Assembly: GCA_040757115.1 (NCBI GenBank)
Contig: JBFLYA010000171.1
Coordinates: 1 to 8,143 of the forward strand
Direction: 5' to 3'
DNA from: a bacterium
GTDB taxonomy: Bacteria > UBA9089 > CG2-30-40-21 > SBAY01
Length of the DNA: 8,143 nt
Numbering within the stretch: the first letter of the stretch is position 1; every line of letters begins with the position of its first letter. The translations under genes were made by a program, and so were the position numbers. The notes beneath the pieces were generated by a model. The model worked only from the letters and a program-made list of their open reading frames with translations. It ran no database searches and was not told the DNA's origin. This document shows, in pieces, positions 249 to 7,942 of the stretch.

Positions 249-1262
249 TTATCGAGAATAAGGGAGTGAAATAAAGGAAGCAGGATTGACGGGATAACCA
301 TTTTTGCAGATTTCAAAATGGAGATGAGAACCTTCACTTCTTCCTGTGCTTCCAACTAATGCAATCACTTCTCCCTGTCGGACATACATCCCCTTAGAAA
401 CCAGATTTTTTGAGTTATGGGCATATTTTGTGACATAGCCACCTGAATGTTTGATTATCACGATATTTCCATAACCCGTTATCCAACCACTATTAATTAC
501 CTCACCACTCTTAGCCGCCATAATTGGTGTGCCCTGATAACTGCCAATGTCAACACCTGTATGAAATCGTATCTGCCCATTAAACGGGTCACGACGGTAT
601 CCATAGCCACTTGAAAACCAACCACCCTTAATTGGTCGAATAAATCCCATTCCACCAACAATATATTCTTTTGTTGCTGGTAATAATTTTGCGCCCGGGA
701 TAAATATCTCTTTTCCTGCCATAAGGTCTTTAGGTTTCGAAATATCGTTAGCATCAAGAATCTTTTCCGTGCTTATTTTATAAGTAGTTGAGATATTACT
801 TATCGTTTCTCCTTTCCCAACCTTATGAAATACGCCGTCTTGATTAGGAAGTCGTAGTTTTTGCCCCGCTCGCAGTGATGCTATTCCTTTAATATTCCGA
901 TTGGCACTCACAATTGTATCTATCTTTAGTCCTTGTTTGTGTGCTATTTCTGACAGGGTATCCCCCGGACGCACTGTATAAAGCATAGTTTCAAAAGAAG
1001 GTTCTTCAACTTCTATGCCACCTATGCCTGCTTTATTATAATCCTTAACTTTACAAATTTGATAGGAGACTTGAGGAATGAATGTTGTCAAAAGTAAATC
1101 ACTTTCTATTTTTAGGCTGGATTGAGTATTGGCTAATATTTGATTTTTATAGAGTGAAGGTAAAAAAGTAATTAATAGTGCAATAAAAATTAATACACTC
1201 CTCTCTATATGTTTCCCCTCCCTCCTTTTTCTATTTTTCCTTTTTGCTTCCATAATAAACAT
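249..1262 (-). CDS. Exported LysM-domain M23 family metallopeptidase
   Basis: Predicted peptidoglycan hydrolase of 337 residues. A basic N terminus (residues 5-21) precedes a hydrophobic segment (about 22-36), either an uncleaved anchor or a signal peptide. Two LysM modules, which bind glycan chains, follow at about 94-139 (YTVRPGDTLSEIA) and 146-189 (HKVGKGETISNIS). The M23 peptidase domain (about 212-330) carries the zinc-site motifs HTGVD (H234, D238) and HLHFE (H313, H315) with H282 in YAH, so it looks catalytically intact. M23 enzymes cut peptide cross-links in peptidoglycan; some homologues instead regulate division or sporulation, and the exact role cannot be read here. The start at 1262 has AAGGA (1275-1279) 12 nt upstream; an in-frame ATG at 1253 is less well placed. 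A consensus promoter lies about 50 nt upstream. The gene ends one base from a dispersed repeat, and no terminator with a T-run is visible. Confidence 0.93.
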   Translation of the reverse strand: MFIMEAKRKNRKRREGKHIERSVLIFIALLITFLPSLYKNQILANTQSSLKIESDLLLTTFIPQVSYQICKVKDYNKAGIGGIEVEEPSFETMLYTVRPGDTLSEIAHKQGLKIDTIVSANRNIKGIASLRAGQKLRLPNQDGVFHKVGKGETISNISTTYKISTEKILDANDISKPKDLMAGKEIFIPGAKLLPATKEYIVGGMGFIRPIKGGWFSSGYGYRRDPFNGQIRFHTGVDIGSYQGTPIMAAKSGEVINSGWITGYGNIVIIKHSGGYVTKYAHNSKNLVSKGMYVRQGEVIALVGSTGRSEGSHLHFEICKNGYPVNPASFISLPYSR

Positions 1263-1926: not shown

Positions 1927-4900
1927 TTATTCCCCAATTAATTTAATATTAGTCACTCTACCCCAGAATCCCCAACCACTACCATAGATATTTATCTTTG
2001 TAATCACAACTGGTTTGGGAGAGAGTTGTTTTATAAGATTAGTCGAGACAAATGTCTGCCAGGTCTTTTCTTTGACGATTTCTTCTAATTCTGGTGCGGT
2101 TATTTTGCCCTGGTACTTAAATCCTTTTCGCCAGATGTGGGTCTTGTTTTCTATATCCATATATTCTAATTCTAAAATGAGCGGATAACTGCTTTCAACA
2201 AACTTATCACCAAAAAATGAGGAATAAATAACCTTTATATCTGCCATTAATACCAAAGATATAAAAGTAGATATAGGCATCCACACTGATTGGCTGATGC
2301 CTAATTTCCCTTCTTCGGTTGATACTCTTGTAAATTCAAAGGCATTTGGATAACTATCACTATCCTTCATTACAGATATTTTATTTAGCCCTTTACCTAT
2401 TTCTATCTTTTCCCAATTACTTAAACCAATTGTAAAATCACCATTGGTTAATAATTTTGTTGGTTGTGTTGGAGGAGCAGGTATTTCTTTCTTTTCTACA
2501 GGTATCTTTTTTGGTCGTTCTGCTATTATTTCAGGCATTTTTACCTCTTCTGTTATCGGCACCTCTTTTTTGGGAATTTCTGGTGCGACGGCAATTGCTA
2601 CTGGTGGTTCTGGCACAACTGGTAATGTTTGTTCACAAACTAATTGAAGATTGGCAAGCCGACTCTCAAATGCCAGCCCAGAACCATATATCTTTACCCC
2701 TTTGATTACTCTTGGTTTTGGAGTAAGAAGGTCTATTAAGTTAGGAGATGTATAAGAATACCATTTATTTTTAGTGATACACTCGCCAATTTTGGGATAA
2801 TTAATCTGTTTTCGATACAGAAAACCATGTTTAAATGATTTAATCTCCCCCAGTGCATCCGCATATTCCAATTCAATCGTCATCGGGTAATCTCCACCTT
2901 CAATCCCATCATTTGCTAAAGAGGCATTGATAACCTTAATATCTGCCTTCACAACTACATACACATATTCAGAAATATCCATATTTAACCGTTGTTTTAT
3001 CCCTAATTCTCCCTTTTCTCTTCCTGCTTTGGTTCGGTTGAATTCTAAAACCTCTGGATAGTTTTCACTTTCTTTAATCACATCTATTTCTTTCTTTCCA
3101 TAGCCTATCTCAAATTTCTGCCAATGGTCTAATCCCTTTTTAAAATCAGGATTAGTGAGTTTTGGAAGTATTTCTTCTATTTTTGGAGGTAATGTTATTT
3201 TTTCTTCAGGTATAACTTTGGCAATTTTAATTTCTGGTTTTGCCGGCGGTGCTTCTTCTGGAACAGCGGGTTTAATAATCTCCTCTACTTTTGGTGGTGG
3301 TACAGGTGGAAACTCAGGTAATTTAACTGGTATTTCAGGTTTTGGCACCTCTTTTGGCACTGGTGGTTTTACCTCTACCGGCTTTGGAACTTCAACCTTT
3401 ATTTCTTCTTTTGGTGGTGCAGGTGGTAACTCAGGTAATTTAACTGGTATTTCAGGTTTTGGCACCTCTTTTGGCACTGGTGGTTTTACCTCTACTGGCT
3501 TTGGAACTTCAACCTTTATTTCTTCTTTTGGTGGTGCAGGTGGTAATTCAGGTAGTTTAACTGGTATTTCAGGTTTTGGCACCTCTTTTGGCACTGGTGG
3601 TTTTACCTCTACTGGCTTTGGAACTTCAACCTTTATTTCTTCTTTTGGTGGTGCAGGTGGTAACTCAGGTAATTTAACTGGTATTTCAGGTTTTGGCAGC
3701 TCTTTTGGCACTGGTGGTTTTACCTCTACTGGCTTTGGAACTTTAACCTTTATTTCTTCTTTTGGTGGTGCAGGTGGTAACTCGGCAATAACTACAGATG
3801 GTTCTTCTACTGGTCGTTCACCCTCTTCAACAGCGAGGTTCACATTATCAATTCTCGCTTTGAATCCTATTCCGGCACCATATATCTTCAAATTTGTAAG
3901 TATCTGAGGTTGAGGAGATAATATCTCCACCAAATTTGGGGATGAATATGAATACCATTGATTTTTAGGTATCTTCTCACCTATGTCCGGATAGTTAAGT
4001 GTGCTTTCTTTATAAGGTTCATCATAAAGAAAACCATGTTTCCAAACATTAACATTTCCTTGTGCATCTTTATATTCTAATTCAATCATTACCGGATATA
4101 ATTTGTCCTCATCACTCGCCAATGATGAAAAAATAAGTTTAACATCCGCACCAATTATTAATGAGTTACAATTAGAAATATCCATATTTAATGATTGACT
4201 TATCCCTAATTCCCCTTTTTCCTTTACCATGCCAATTCTTTTATATTCAAATACCTTTGGATACTGTTTGGTATCAAAAATAACCTGGAGTATCTTTTTC
4301 CCTCCCGGGGTCTCAATCTTATCCCAATATTTTAAATCAAGTGAAAAATCAGGGTTAGTAAGTAGCTTGGGTATTATTCTGCCTGCTCTTTTTGGAGGGA
4401 GTTTTGGTTTTTCTACTATTTGAGGTAATTCAACTGGTGGTTTTGGAGGCTTGACCTCTTCGACGATTTTAGGCTTTTCCTCGATAACTGGTTTCTCTGG
4501 AACTTTGGCAATGACTTCTTCTTTTGGCTGGACTTCCTTTACTATTGGTGGAATTTCAACCTTTGGGATTTCGGGTAGTTTTACTTCCTTTGGTTTTTCA
4601 GGCACAGGTGGTTTTGAAGGTTTGACCTCTTCGACGACTTTCGGCTTCTCCTCGACAACTGGTTTCTCTGGAACTTTGGCAATGACTTCTTCTTTTGGCT
4701 GGACTTCCTTTACTATTGGTGGAATTTCAACCTTTGGAATTTCAGGTACTTTTACCTCCTTTGGTTTTTCAGGCACAGGTGGTTTTGGAGGCTTGACCTC
4801 TTCGACGATTTTCGGCTTTTCCTCGACAACTGGTTTCTCTGGAACTTTGGCAATGACTTCTTCTTTTGGCTGGACTTCCTTTACTATTGGTGGAATTTCA

Positions 4901-6924
4901 ACCTTTGGAATTTCAGGTAGTTTTACTTCCTTTGGTTTTTCAGGCACAGGTGGTTTTGGAGGTTTGACCTCTTCGACGATTTTCGGCTTTTCCTCGATAA
5001 CTGGTTTCTCTGGAACTTTGGCAATGACTTCTTCTTTTGGCTTTATTTCCTTTACTATTGGTGGAATTTCAATCTTTGGAATTTCGGGTAGTTTTACTTC
5101 CTTTGGTTTTTCAGGCACAGGTGGTTTTGGAGGTTTGACCTCTTCGACGATTTTCGGCTTTTCCTCGACAACTGGTTTCTCTGGAACTTTGGCAATGACT
5201 TCTTCTTTTGGCTGGACTTCCTTTACTATTGGTGGAATTTCAATCTTTGGAATTTCAGGTAGTTTTACTTCCTTTGGTTTTTCAGGCACAGGTGGTTTTG
5301 GAGGTTTGACCTCTTCGACGATTTTCGGCTTTTCCTCGACTGGTTTTTGTGGAGGTAAAACCTTTGGAAGTTCTGCAACGACTATTTCTTTCACCTCGAA
5401 TTTTCCAGTCCAATATTCACGAGGATAAGAAGAGAGACTTCGACAACGAAGTGATGACAAATCAGCCGGTTTGGTTTTGTCATCTTCGGTTATAAATAAT
5501 AAAGAACCAAATTGGCGGTCAACATAAACATGGTAGGTAAAGAAATCGCCCGGGGTGAGTTGTCGGTCTTTATCTTCAAGTTCTACGAGGAGATTTTTAC
5601 CTGGAACTACTTCACCTTGCATTTCAGTATTGAGTAATATCTGGCTTTGCGTTTTCCCGCGTTCGGTAAGGATATTTGCCCCTCGTGTAAATGACGGGTC
5701 TATTTCCATACTAACATTTAATGTAGTGGGTAAAAGTGGTTGTTGTCTATAATTAAATCTTGTTGTCTTTTCCTTTGCATTCAAATATGCCATACCTACA
5801 TCTATGACTTTTCCCATTTCTTCACTACTGATTTTATTATCCCAGCCTATATTTTTTTCGATTAATTCTGTTCGTATCTCCGGAGTTATACCAAGTTCAA
5901 TCCAGCGACCAAATATTGGTCGTCCATCTTCATAAGAGCGTAAAACAGCAGATGGAATAGTAATAATATCAAATCCCTTATCTGGAGGAAGACCAGCCTC
6001 TTGCGGTGAGACGATACTGAAATATAATTCTACACCCTTTTTAGTTTTAGAAAAAACAAGTTTTATAGGTAAATTTTTAGCGATAACATAAATATCTCCA
6101 AGTCCAGGACCAATCAGGCTTAACTCAGAAGAGTTTAATTCTGATTTCAAATCCGTCAAGGGGGTGTAAATTAGTCTAATAGAATTACGGGATAAGGCTT
6201 GAACTTCAAGTTTGGCATTAGTTCCTTGTAAAGAAAGGTCGGGTTGAACATCTGCGAGGGCAGCGAAATTGCCTATTTTAAGTCCTAATGTATGCTCAAT
6301 TGCGGTCCGGGAAATAATTCCCGTGTAGCTCTTATCACCATTGGGGTCGTGTAAAATAGTAAGTGGTAGGTATGGAAGATAGGTATAACTCGAACCGGAT
6401 AAATACCGCACCATAACAAAAGCAACCTTTTCTCCACTTGAAGGACCAATAGGCAGGTCAACTCTGGTCACAAACTTATATCTTACCTCAGGGTCTTTTT
6501 GAACGACCATTGGGGTAATGAATTCGCGCAAATCTACGCTTTTACGATTAGAGACGATTTCCTCTGCCTTTTCATAAAGTAATTCCCATTTGCCAGAATA
6601 AGGATAAGATTCCTTTTCTAATTTGATAATCACAATTGCTTTTTCATCCAGGCCTGATGTATTATTTCCTCGCCAATCAACCTTAAATCGAAATGAATCT
6701 ATATCCTCTTTCAATACCAATGTCGTATCTTCCGCCAGTGAGGCACCGGCATTGGCCCAAATAGGTATTTCCAACAGACCCCGCCAGTCACCAAAAATAT
6801 TTCCTACAGAAATAATTGACGGCGTAACATTAGTATTAATTGTTGCTTCTTTTCCATAAACCAAAGATGCAATAGTTAGTGATAAAAAGGTTACCCAGTA
6901 AAAAACTTTACTTCTCCCTTTCAT
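1927..6924 (-). CDS. Giant exported Pro/Glu/Val/Lys repeat protein with three copies of a C-terminal module (1665 aa)
   Basis: Signal peptide at residues 1-24 (basic MKGRSK, hydrophobic core, likely cut after VYG). Residues 25-520 form a mostly beta-like region I cannot assign. Residues 530-831 are five 57-residue units plus a partial sixth, built almost only of P, E, K, V and I. Module 1 follows (about 853-1033), then four 39-residue P/E/K/V units (1048-1203), a further Pro-rich linker, module 2 (about 1255-1433), a non-repeated Pro-rich linker, and module 3 (about 1490-1665). The modules share LTNxDF..gL..W near the start, KGELGI.Q, YP..iELEY, SPNL and IYG.G near the end. The start resembles carbohydrate-binding or galactose-binding-like beta-sandwiches (CBM4/9 type), which is a weak inference. 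No catalytic motif, LPXTG, lipobox or transmembrane C terminus is visible. Likely a long extracytoplasmic stalk or adhesin-like protein. The ATG at 6924 is fixed by a strong Shine-Dalgarno site and by the signal peptide. Confidence 0.9.
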   Translation of the reverse strand: MKGRSKVFYWVTFLSLTIASLVYGKEATINTNVTPSIISVGNIFGDWRGLLEIPIWANAGASLAEDTTLVLKEDIDSFRFKVDWRGNNTSGLDEKAIVIIKLEKESYPYSGKWELLYEKAEEIVSNRKSVDLREFITPMVVQKDPEVRYKFVTRVDLPIGPSSGEKVAFVMVRYLSGSSYTYLPYLPLTILHDPNGDKSYTGIISRTAIEHTLGLKIGNFAALADVQPDLSLQGTNAKLEVQALSRNSIRLIYTPLTDLKSELNSSELSLIGPGLGDIYVIAKNLPIKLVFSKTKKGVELYFSIVSPQEAGLPPDKGFDIITIPSAVLRSYEDGRPIFGRWIELGITPEIRTELIEKNIGWDNKISSEEMGKVIDVGMAYLNAKEKTTRFNYRQQPLLPTTLNVSMEIDPSFTRGANILTERGKTQSQILLNTEMQGEVVPGKNLLVELEDKDRQLTPGDFFTYHVYVDRQFGSLLFITEDDKTKPADLSSLRCRSLSSYPREYWTGKFEVKEIVVAELPKVLPPQKPVEEKPKIVEEVKPPKPPVPEKPKEVKLPEIPKIEIPPIVKEVQPKEEVIAKVPEKPVVEEKPKIVEEVKPPKPPVPEKPKEVKLPEIPKIEIPPIVKEIKPKEEVIAKVPEKPVIEEKPKIVEEVKPPKPPVPEKPKEVKLPEIPKVEIPPIVKEVQPKEEVIAKVPEKPVVEEKPKIVEEVKPPKPPVPEKPKEVKVPEIPKVEIPPIVKEVQPKEEVIAKVPEKPVVEEKPKVVEEVKPSKPPVPEKPKEVKLPEIPKVEIPPIVKEVQPKEEVIAKVPEKPVIEEKPKIVEEVKPPKPPVELPQIVEKPKLPPKRAGRIIPKLLTNPDFSLDLKYWDKIETPGGKKILQVIFDTKQYPKVFEYKRIGMVKEKGELGISQSLNMDISNCNSLIIGADVKLIFSSLASDEDKLYPVMIELEYKDAQGNVNVWKHGFLYDEPYKESTLNYPDIGEKIPKNQWYSYSSPNLVEILSPQPQILTNLKIYGAGIGFKARIDNVNLAVEEGERPVEEPSVVIAELPPAPPKEEIKVKVPKPVEVKPPVPKELPKPEIPVKLPELPPAPPKEEIKVEVPKPVEVKPPVPKEVPKPEIPVKLPELPPAPPKEEIKVEVPKPVEVKPPVPKEVPKPEIPVKLPELPPAPPKEEIKVEVPKPVEVKPPVPKEVPKPEIPVKLPEFPPVPPPKVEEIIKPAVPEEAPPAKPEIKIAKVIPEEKITLPPKIEEILPKLTNPDFKKGLDHWQKFEIGYGKKEIDVIKESENYPEVLEFNRTKAGREKGELGIKQRLNMDISEYVYVVVKADIKVINASLANDGIEGGDYPMTIELEYADALGEIKSFKHGFLYRKQINYPKIGECITKNKWYSYTSPNLIDLLTPKPRVIKGVKIYGSGLAFESRLANLQLVCEQTLPVVPEPPVAIAVAPEIPKKEVPITEEVKMPEIIAERPKKIPVEKKEIPAPPTQPTKLLTNGDFTIGLSNWEKIEIGKGLNKISVMKDSDSYPNAFEFTRVSTEEGKLGISQSVWMPISTFISLVLMADIKVIYSSFFGDKFVESSYPLILELEYMDIENKTHIWRKGFKYQGKITAPELEEIVKEKTWQTFVSTNLIKQLSPKPVVITKINIYGSGWGFWGRVTNIKLIGE
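3316..3783 (-). repeat. Coding tandem repeat, four units of 117 bp (39 aa)
   Basis: Encodes residues 1048-1203 of the giant protein. Units begin ELPPAPPKEEIKV and end near KPEIPVKLP, at residues 1048, 1087, 1126 and 1165. A diverged continuation (EFPPVPPPK) starts at 1204. The units are nearly identical in DNA as well as protein: unit 1 has KVKV and KELPK where the others have KVEV and KEVPK. The period is a multiple of three, so gain or loss of a unit keeps the frame. Read on the plus strand this stretch gives a spurious Gly/Ser/Thr/Phe frame. Confidence 0.95.
4432..5337 (-). repeat. Coding tandem repeat, five units of 171 bp (57 aa) plus a partial unit
   Basis: Encodes residues 530-831. 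Units start with EEKPKIVEEVKPPKPP at 530, 587, 644, 701 and 758; a truncated sixth starts at 815 and stops at about 831, where the sequence turns into VELPQIVEKPKLPP. Variants mark unit histories: units 1-2 have EIPKIEI and units 3-5 EIPKVEI; unit 2 alone has KEIKPKEE where the rest have KEVQPKEE; unit 4 has KVPEIP; unit 5 has PKVVEEVKPSKPP. Long stretches are identical at DNA level, so the array looks young or homogenised. Confidence 0.95.
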
Positions 6925-6934
6925 ATTGACACTC

Positions 6935-6944
6935 TACCTCCTTA
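6935..6944 (-). promoter_or_regulatory. Strong Shine-Dalgarno site of the giant gene
   Basis: Minus-strand TAAGGAGGTA contains the full AAGGAGGT anti-16S match. The GGAGG core is 12 nt from the ATG at 6924, a little long. The peptidase gene shows the same 12-nt distance from its AAGGA to its start. This site fixes the giant gene's start, since a nearby GTG is out of frame. Confidence 0.8.
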
Positions 6945-7087: not shown

Positions 7088-7942
7088 ATGATGTTTAAAA
7101 TATCATTTATCCTTATCCTATCATTAATATTTCAGATAACTTATCCTCAATTAGTCTTTTCTTATGGTCTGCTTACACACATCGAGCTTATGACTCAAAC
7201 AATGAGAGCATTAGGGTCTGAATTCGCCTCCATATCAACTACATTCTTACTTTATGCCACATTAGGGGCAATTGGACCAAATATTTTTAAAGGTAACCTT
7301 TTTAAAAAACTTCATGGAGAACAATTTACACAATTTGTCTATGGCATGATAGATTATTTAATGAATCTTACACCTGGAGAAAAAAGGCAGAAACTAACTG
7401 CCTATTTATATGGCTATTTAACCCATCTTGCCGGGGATATAAATGGTGATGCACTTGCCCATCGACTAAGTCATCAAAAAGAACATAATTCTAAGTTTAA
7501 TCGAGTTTATCTTCATCAAGACCTTTATGTTGCGTGTAAATATTATCCTGCGGGTGGGAATAAGGCTAATTTAAAGATTGACTTATATGAATTAGATACA
7601 GATATTATGCAGATGTATCGATGGGTATTTGATAAATTGGAAGGCGGGACATTTAAATTAGAGTGGAAGACATTTATCTCTTCTTATGACCGAACTCGAC
7701 TTCTTATCTGGTGGTTAATCCAGGAGGCAAAACAACCTTTTTTCCGTGTGTTTTTACCTTATAATTTTAGTATGAAGTATCTCTTAGAATTTGAGCGTAA
7801 TTTTGAAGACGCTAAACAAAAAGCCATTCAATTCATTAAGACAGCAACCGAGTATCTTTATAGCCCTACCTGGAATAAGGAGGGATTGGATAAATTAAAA
7901 GAAGTTCTTAAAGAAGACGATGTTGGCTGTCCGTATCTGTAA
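7088..7942 (+). CDS. Exported zinc-dependent phospholipase C-like protein
   Basis: 284 residues with a signal peptide (basic K4, hydrophobic 5-24, likely cut near VFSYG). The body resembles the zinc-dependent phospholipase C / S1-P1 nuclease-like family: SYGLLTH near the mature N terminus (H31), GAIGPNIF (60-67), H76, then YLYGYLTHLAGDINGDALAH with H113-x3-D117 and H125, followed by HNSKF (H133) and LHQD (H143, D145). Bacillus phospholipase C has the comparable series H14, D55, H69, H118-x3-D122, H128, H142-x3-E146. Here the Asp of GxxxPD is Asn65 and the last Glu is not obvious, so activity is uncertain. If active, it would cleave phospholipid head groups outside the cytoplasm. The start gives no usable Shine-Dalgarno site and lies at the predicted transcription start, suggesting leaderless translation; a second ATG follows at once (7091). 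It is divergent from the giant gene. Confidence 0.68.
   Translation: MMFKISFILILSLIFQITYPQLVFSYGLLTHIELMTQTMRALGSEFASISTTFLLYATLGAIGPNIFKGNLFKKLHGEQFTQFVYGMIDYLMNLTPGEKRQKLTAYLYGYLTHLAGDINGDALAHRLSHQKEHNSKFNRVYLHQDLYVACKYYPAGGNKANLKIDLYELDTDIMQMYRWVFDKLEGGTFKLEWKTFISSYDRTRLLIWWLIQEAKQPFFRVFLPYNFSMKYLLEFERNFEDAKQKAIQFIKTATEYLYSPTWNKEGLDKLKEVLKEDDVGCPYL

Follow-up and report, generated by a model that had tools for sequence, protein, structure and literature searches.

A protein of 1,665 aa encoded by an uncultured member of the candidate phylum Desantisbacteria combines folded modules with long spacers made almost entirely of a few residues, and composition, rather than sequence, seems to be what is kept in these spacers when proteins from two genera are compared. 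This exported-looking protein might act in the cell envelope as a tether or scaffold in which spacers behaving as entropic coils link glycan-binding-like modules, a reading given middling confidence.

The window, i.e. the whole stretch of DNA analysed (8,143 nucleotides), is the entire contig 171 of a 4.3-Mb host genome assembled in 462 contigs. The ORF at 1927–6924 (minus strand) is a single intact gene that starts with ATG, lacks any internal stop and is preceded, 11 nt 5' of the ATG, by a Shine-Dalgarno sequence read directly from the DNA, AAGGAGGT (6936–6943, minus strand). Two antisense ORFs that cover the repeat arrays on the plus strand (4451–5428 and 3155–3907) and are rich in Gly, Ser, Thr and Phe were rejected as a shadow of the repeats, because it is the full-length minus-strand frame that homologues and a Shine-Dalgarno site support. 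No RNA element was found in the window at gathering thresholds. The window also carries a MITE-like repeat, an imperfect palindrome of ~230 bp (1664–1892) with the ends GTAAGCGTTCAGG...CCTGAACGGTTAC, of which an identical 122-bp piece forms the first bases of the contig (1–122). The host genome harbours 40 scored copies of it, most of them at 93–98% identity, and its end motif AGCCTGAACGGTTAC occurs at 180 sites in the genome versus 0 in the control. As many copies are found at contig ends, this repeat probably breaks the assembly.

From N to C terminus, the protein consists of a leader (residues 1–24), a beta-rich domain (25–515), spacer 1 (516–851), module M1 (852–1033), spacer 2 (1034–1254), module M2 (1255–1431), spacer 3 (1432–1489) and module M3 (1490–1665). 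The three spacers (336, 221 and 58 aa) thus account for 615 of the 1,665 residues and stand between a separate N-terminal domain and three modules of ~175 aa. The whole protein has no match in Pfam or NCBIfam and no catalytic domain was recognised in it. The leader (MKGRSKVFYWVTFLSLTIASLVYG / KEA; 6853–6924, minus strand) is hydrophobic, lacks a lipobox Cys and, judged by eye, has the appearance of a cleavable signal peptide; homologues carry similar hydrophobic leaders that end in YG or FG and are followed by E or K. The N-terminal domain or domains (5380–6852, minus strand), delineated from homologues and an AlphaFold2 model of residues 1–1033, belong to an unnamed family without Pfam match, whose members in the seven related genomes display 26–96% identity. 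Its predicted structure has pLDDT values mostly between 70 and 93 and includes an Ig-like part (residues 55–176), but structural matches are weak and of Ig-like/transglutaminase type (best Z 8.3 over 109–112 of the 491 residues).

M1 (3826–4371) and M3 (1930–2457), both on the minus strand, were recognised by a module HMM and alignment, M3 being the C-terminal end of the protein, and M2 (2632–3162, minus strand) by AlphaFold2 and structural matches. M1 was poorly predicted in the run on residues 1–1033, for which only two module homologues were available. M2, modelled alone with 30 family sequences, reaches a pLDDT of 93.7 and a pTM of 0.89, and its fold matches known structures at Z up to 13.9, with CBM16, CBM61 and CBM4-2 at Z 11–14; CBM11 was retrieved by Foldseek, and the fold also resembles the jelly-rolls of tailspikes and cyclases. 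The modules are therefore predicted with high confidence to be jelly-rolls of the carbohydrate-binding-module type, M2 being the one modelled and M1 and M3 being homologous to it. Nevertheless, a predicted jelly-roll does not prove sugar binding, a common fold being different from a common function. Indeed, no Pfam CBM family matches the 1,665-aa protein, one relative (L041) stays under the Pfam CBM_4_9 cut-off (19.6 bits vs 25.9), and a PDB sequence search with the N-terminal-domain and module profiles gave no confident match.

The two long spacers hold tandem arrays. Spacer 1 (4372–5379, minus strand), defined by Tandem Repeats Finder, composition and AlphaFold2, contains 5.3 copies of a 171-bp unit (57 aa, EVIAKVPEKPV...QPKE; 4436–5340, 96% matches), whereas spacer 2 (3163–3825, minus strand), defined by Tandem Repeats Finder and composition, contains 4.2 copies of a 117-bp unit (39 aa, ELPPAPPKEE...; 3295–3783, 97% matches). 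Spacer 3 (2458–2631, minus strand), recognised by its composition, is unrepeated and 78% Pro, Glu, Val, Lys, Ile and Leu. These six residues make up 95% of spacer 1 and 94% of spacer 2, versus a background of 44% in other long ORFs, and Pro, Glu, Val and Lys alone represent 83% and 81%, respectively. Aromatic residues, Gly, Asn, Asp, Cys and His are nearly absent from both long spacers, and charges are finely mixed (kappa ~0.05) with a net charge near 0. The enrichment corresponds to a binomial log10 P of about -89 for spacer 1 and -55 for spacer 2, values that are overstated since the residues of repeats are not independent; chance is no contender as the source of this composition. The earlier note, which described two arrays made almost wholly of these six residues and counted 285 residues in the first one (5 x 57), was thus accurate on both points. 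Its span of 85–90 nm holds as a maximal contour, but the chain would cover much less when relaxed: all 336 residues of spacer 1 would extend over ~11–22 nm rms at persistence lengths of 0.5–2 nm, and over ~15 nm end to end if the persistence length is ~1 nm. Its reading also agrees with the structure prediction for array 1, since residues ~490–850 have no secondary structure and a pLDDT of 24–31 in the model of residues 1–1033, although AlphaFold2 confidence is low for any repetitive sequence without homologues. Disorder of the arrays is thus likely, as far as prediction goes.

Arrays 1 and 2 have no 6-mer in common, and no more than 6 are found both in them and in the spacers of the sister genus. 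Nevertheless, the composition of all these spacers correlates at 0.92–0.97 and the first spacer has nearly the same length in the host (336 aa) and in one genome of the sister genus (342 aa, G002). As almost no 6-mers are common while composition and length agree, the arrays of the two genera appear, on sequence comparison, as independent expansions with the same composition and a similar length. Within the genus, the second genome (G001; homologue at 95–96% identity) also carries four ELPPAPPKEE-type 39-aa units in array 2, its array 1 being interrupted by an assembly gap. The 39-aa units differ by 2–3 nt within the host genome and by 4–8 nt from those of G001, i.e. they are homogenised within each genome. 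Between these two genomes, the tail of spacer 1 has a dN/dS of 0.42, as against 0.14 in spacer 2 (31 differences) and 0.20 in the N-terminal domain, figures that rest on small counts and on an ambiguous alignment of repeats; the reading frame of the spacers and their excluded residues are kept. Furthermore, the TonB of the host genome, whose locus also holds ExbB/ExbD-like ORFs, has a linker of ~90 aa with a composition correlated at 0.94 with that of array 1. The likeness in composition to TonB and to the PEVK region of titin put forward in the earlier note is thus borne out, and for TonB it can be drawn within a single cell. TonB itself is distinct from the protein described here: a search of the genome with PF03544 retrieved two other genes and not that at 1927–6924, and TonB_C is absent from the 1,665-aa protein (Pfam, up to E 1). 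As the arrays keep their composition and the host's own TonB linker matches it, envelope spacers in this host seem to follow a house style of PEVK composition and to be lengthened by tandem duplication. Globally, unrelated tandem arrays that share a P/E/V/K/I/L composition, within one protein and between sister genera, provide a natural case in which one can ask whether selection sees only the composition and length of a spacer and not its sequence.

Relatives of the N-terminal domain and of the layout with several modules were found, beyond the host itself, only in seven other genomes, all from one order (two families) of Desantisbacteria: one from the same genus (G001), two from a second genus of the same family (G002 and G003) and four from a second family (G004–G007), including contig 160 (locus L043) of Candidatus Desantisbacteria CG2_30_40_21 (G007). 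None of the 11 other genomes of the phylum that were searched has such a relative, and plasmids and viral contigs gave no relative either. The array query had no match outside the host and G001 (E 1e-6, 386 genomes), a search in which the handling of low complexity may hide compositional matches. Two contigs with homologues (L044 and L045) bear the deposited names Nitrospira sp. and Marinifilum sp., which look wrong because their genomes group with Desantisbacteria. The module alone has weak relatives in six genomes of other phyla (L059, L060, L061, L062, L063 and L064), in single-module or multi-domain exported-looking proteins, and may, on this sequence similarity, be a widespread, unnamed domain.

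The host is a diderm, since its genome encodes Omp85/BamA, TonB and OmpA proteins, which implies an outer membrane. In both genomes of the genus, a PilQ/GspD-type secretin also bears the module at its N terminus, where PilQ usually carries AMIN domains. At the module–secretin loci (L025, 7832–9712 and 6120–7694; L029, 2219–4135), the module–secretin gene is divergent from a WxLIP_PGBD (peptidoglycan-binding) gene. In the second family, the related proteins (G004–G007) carry a peptidoglycan-binding OmpA domain, after which come Pro/Ala/Val/Lys-rich linkers and two modules. In the 1,665-aa protein, neither a lipobox nor an LPXTG motif was seen, nor was a C-terminal sorting domain or an autotransporter barrel, the protein ending with TNIKLIGE directly after M3. 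As relatives carry secretin or OmpA domains and no surface-sorting motif was seen, the protein can tentatively be placed in the periplasm or the outer membrane. It would belong to an undescribed family of envelope proteins in which CBM-like modules are linked with OmpA domains and secretins. Downstream of the gene lies a gene for a cell-wall hydrolase with LysM and peptidase M23 domains (249–1262, minus strand; Pfam and NCBIfam), and a like LysM-M23 gene adjoins the homologue of G003 (L031, 5194–6216; matched by its N terminus), in a comparison of neighbourhoods kept narrow by the short contigs. On the other side, a divergent gene (7088–7942) with a signal-like start encodes a zinc-dependent phospholipase C domain (PF00882) and is adjacent in G001 too (L027).

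The favoured tether would work as follows. The protein would be exported through its signal-peptide-like leader and retained in the envelope, in the periplasm or at the outer membrane. Its N-terminal domain would hold one partner, while the modules would bind a glycan, either peptidoglycan or another polymer. The spacers, as soft, extended and probably polyproline-II-biased coils, would give reach to the modules and keep them apart, like the TonB linker, and tandem duplication would remake them under a selection that keeps composition and rough length but not sequence. The predicted lack of structure of array 1, the agreement in composition and length of arrays that seem to have expanded independently, the likeness to the TonB linker, the modules of CBM type, the relatives with secretin or OmpA domains, the diderm host and the LysM-M23 neighbour all support this reading. 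Against it, coils of 336 and 221 aa far exceed what is required to cross the periplasm, so that the protein might also act outside the cell.

This excess of length is also what a surface stalk or adhesin would explain, if the protein left the cell, e.g. by type II secretion or through a pilus secretin, and if the spacers projected the modules outwards so that these could hold a polysaccharide or a surface, in the manner of fibrillar adhesins and periscope proteins. The module fold, shared with CBMs and with the binding domains of phage tailspikes, and the ability of tandem duplication to alter repeat number would fit such a role, which is nonetheless rather unlikely: no surface-sorting motif was seen and M3 is terminal, the OmpA and secretin domains of the relatives are periplasmic, and the spacers are predicted to be unstructured rather than to form a folded rod. 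In periscope proteins and fibrillar adhesins, stalks are made of folded repeats and are anchored at the surface. Of the elastic or length-setting spacer between surface modules that the earlier note proposed, the spacer between folded modules of an exported-looking protein is supported, but "surface" and "stalk" are not, the relatives suggesting a place in the periplasm or outer membrane.

It is decidedly improbable that the arrays are an elastic element, i.e. an entropic spring under load and the bacterial counterpart of titin PEVK. Their PEVK-like composition, well-mixed charges and predicted lack of structure would fit such a spring, and titin PEVK is described as an entropic spring with a persistence length of about 1 nm (PMC12295887). 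However, no load-bearing partner is known at either end, every disordered chain is entropically elastic, so that this property is silent on function, and a like composition forms a plain linker in TonB. The same slender chance is given to a lineage-specific "titin-like" tether of Desantisbacteria, anchored at both ends, whose PEVK-type spacers, with a contour of ~70–100 nm, would bear load or set the spacing of layers; if so, the N-terminal domain would sit on one envelope layer and the modules on the cell wall or an exopolymer. Least probable of all is a neutral expansion, in which the arrays would be tolerated low-complexity products of slippage without any function of their own, since the near-identical units homogenised within the gene and the not uniformly low dN/dS (that of spacer 1) that favour it are opposed by the independent arrays of two genera with the same composition and similar length, by the low dN/dS of spacer 2, few as its differences are, and by the maintained frame and excluded residues.

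The favoured tether can be set against several known systems. The predicted fold of M2 resembles CBM16 (Z 13.7 over 131 residues, 14% identity), and the modules begin with an NGDF..GL..W-like N-terminal start, as in the jelly-roll CBMs (CBM16, CBM61, CBM4-2 and CBM11). Like periscope proteins and fibrillar adhesins, this is a long exported-looking protein in which repeats would set the distance of binding domains, but the stalks of such proteins are made of folded repeat domains and are anchored at the surface (PMC8201768), whereas in the present protein a surface anchor was not observed and disorder is predicted for the repeats. Titin PEVK shares the dominance of P, E, V and K, repeat units of tens of residues and predicted disorder; in the present protein, PPAK occurs once (in spacer 2, outside the repeats), neither PPAK nor polyE is a repeat motif, and the spacers of this bacterial, exported-looking protein are flanked by jelly-roll modules instead of titin Ig domains, so the likeness is one of composition. 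No bacterial PEVK protein was found in the literature searched. A close parallel is the TonB linker, together with the proline-rich domain II of TolA, also a Pro/Glu/Lys/Val-rich spacer of the diderm envelope, the periplasmic place of the present spacers being probable rather than observed. TonB-type Pro-rich linkers are expected to be polyproline-II-like (PMC12204202). TonB is anchored in the membrane by its N terminus and ends in a TonB domain, whereas this protein has a start that resembles, by eye, a signal peptide, spacers 2.5 to 4 times longer and several folded modules between them. The 1,665-aa protein belongs to an undescribed family, but its kind of spacer is already known.
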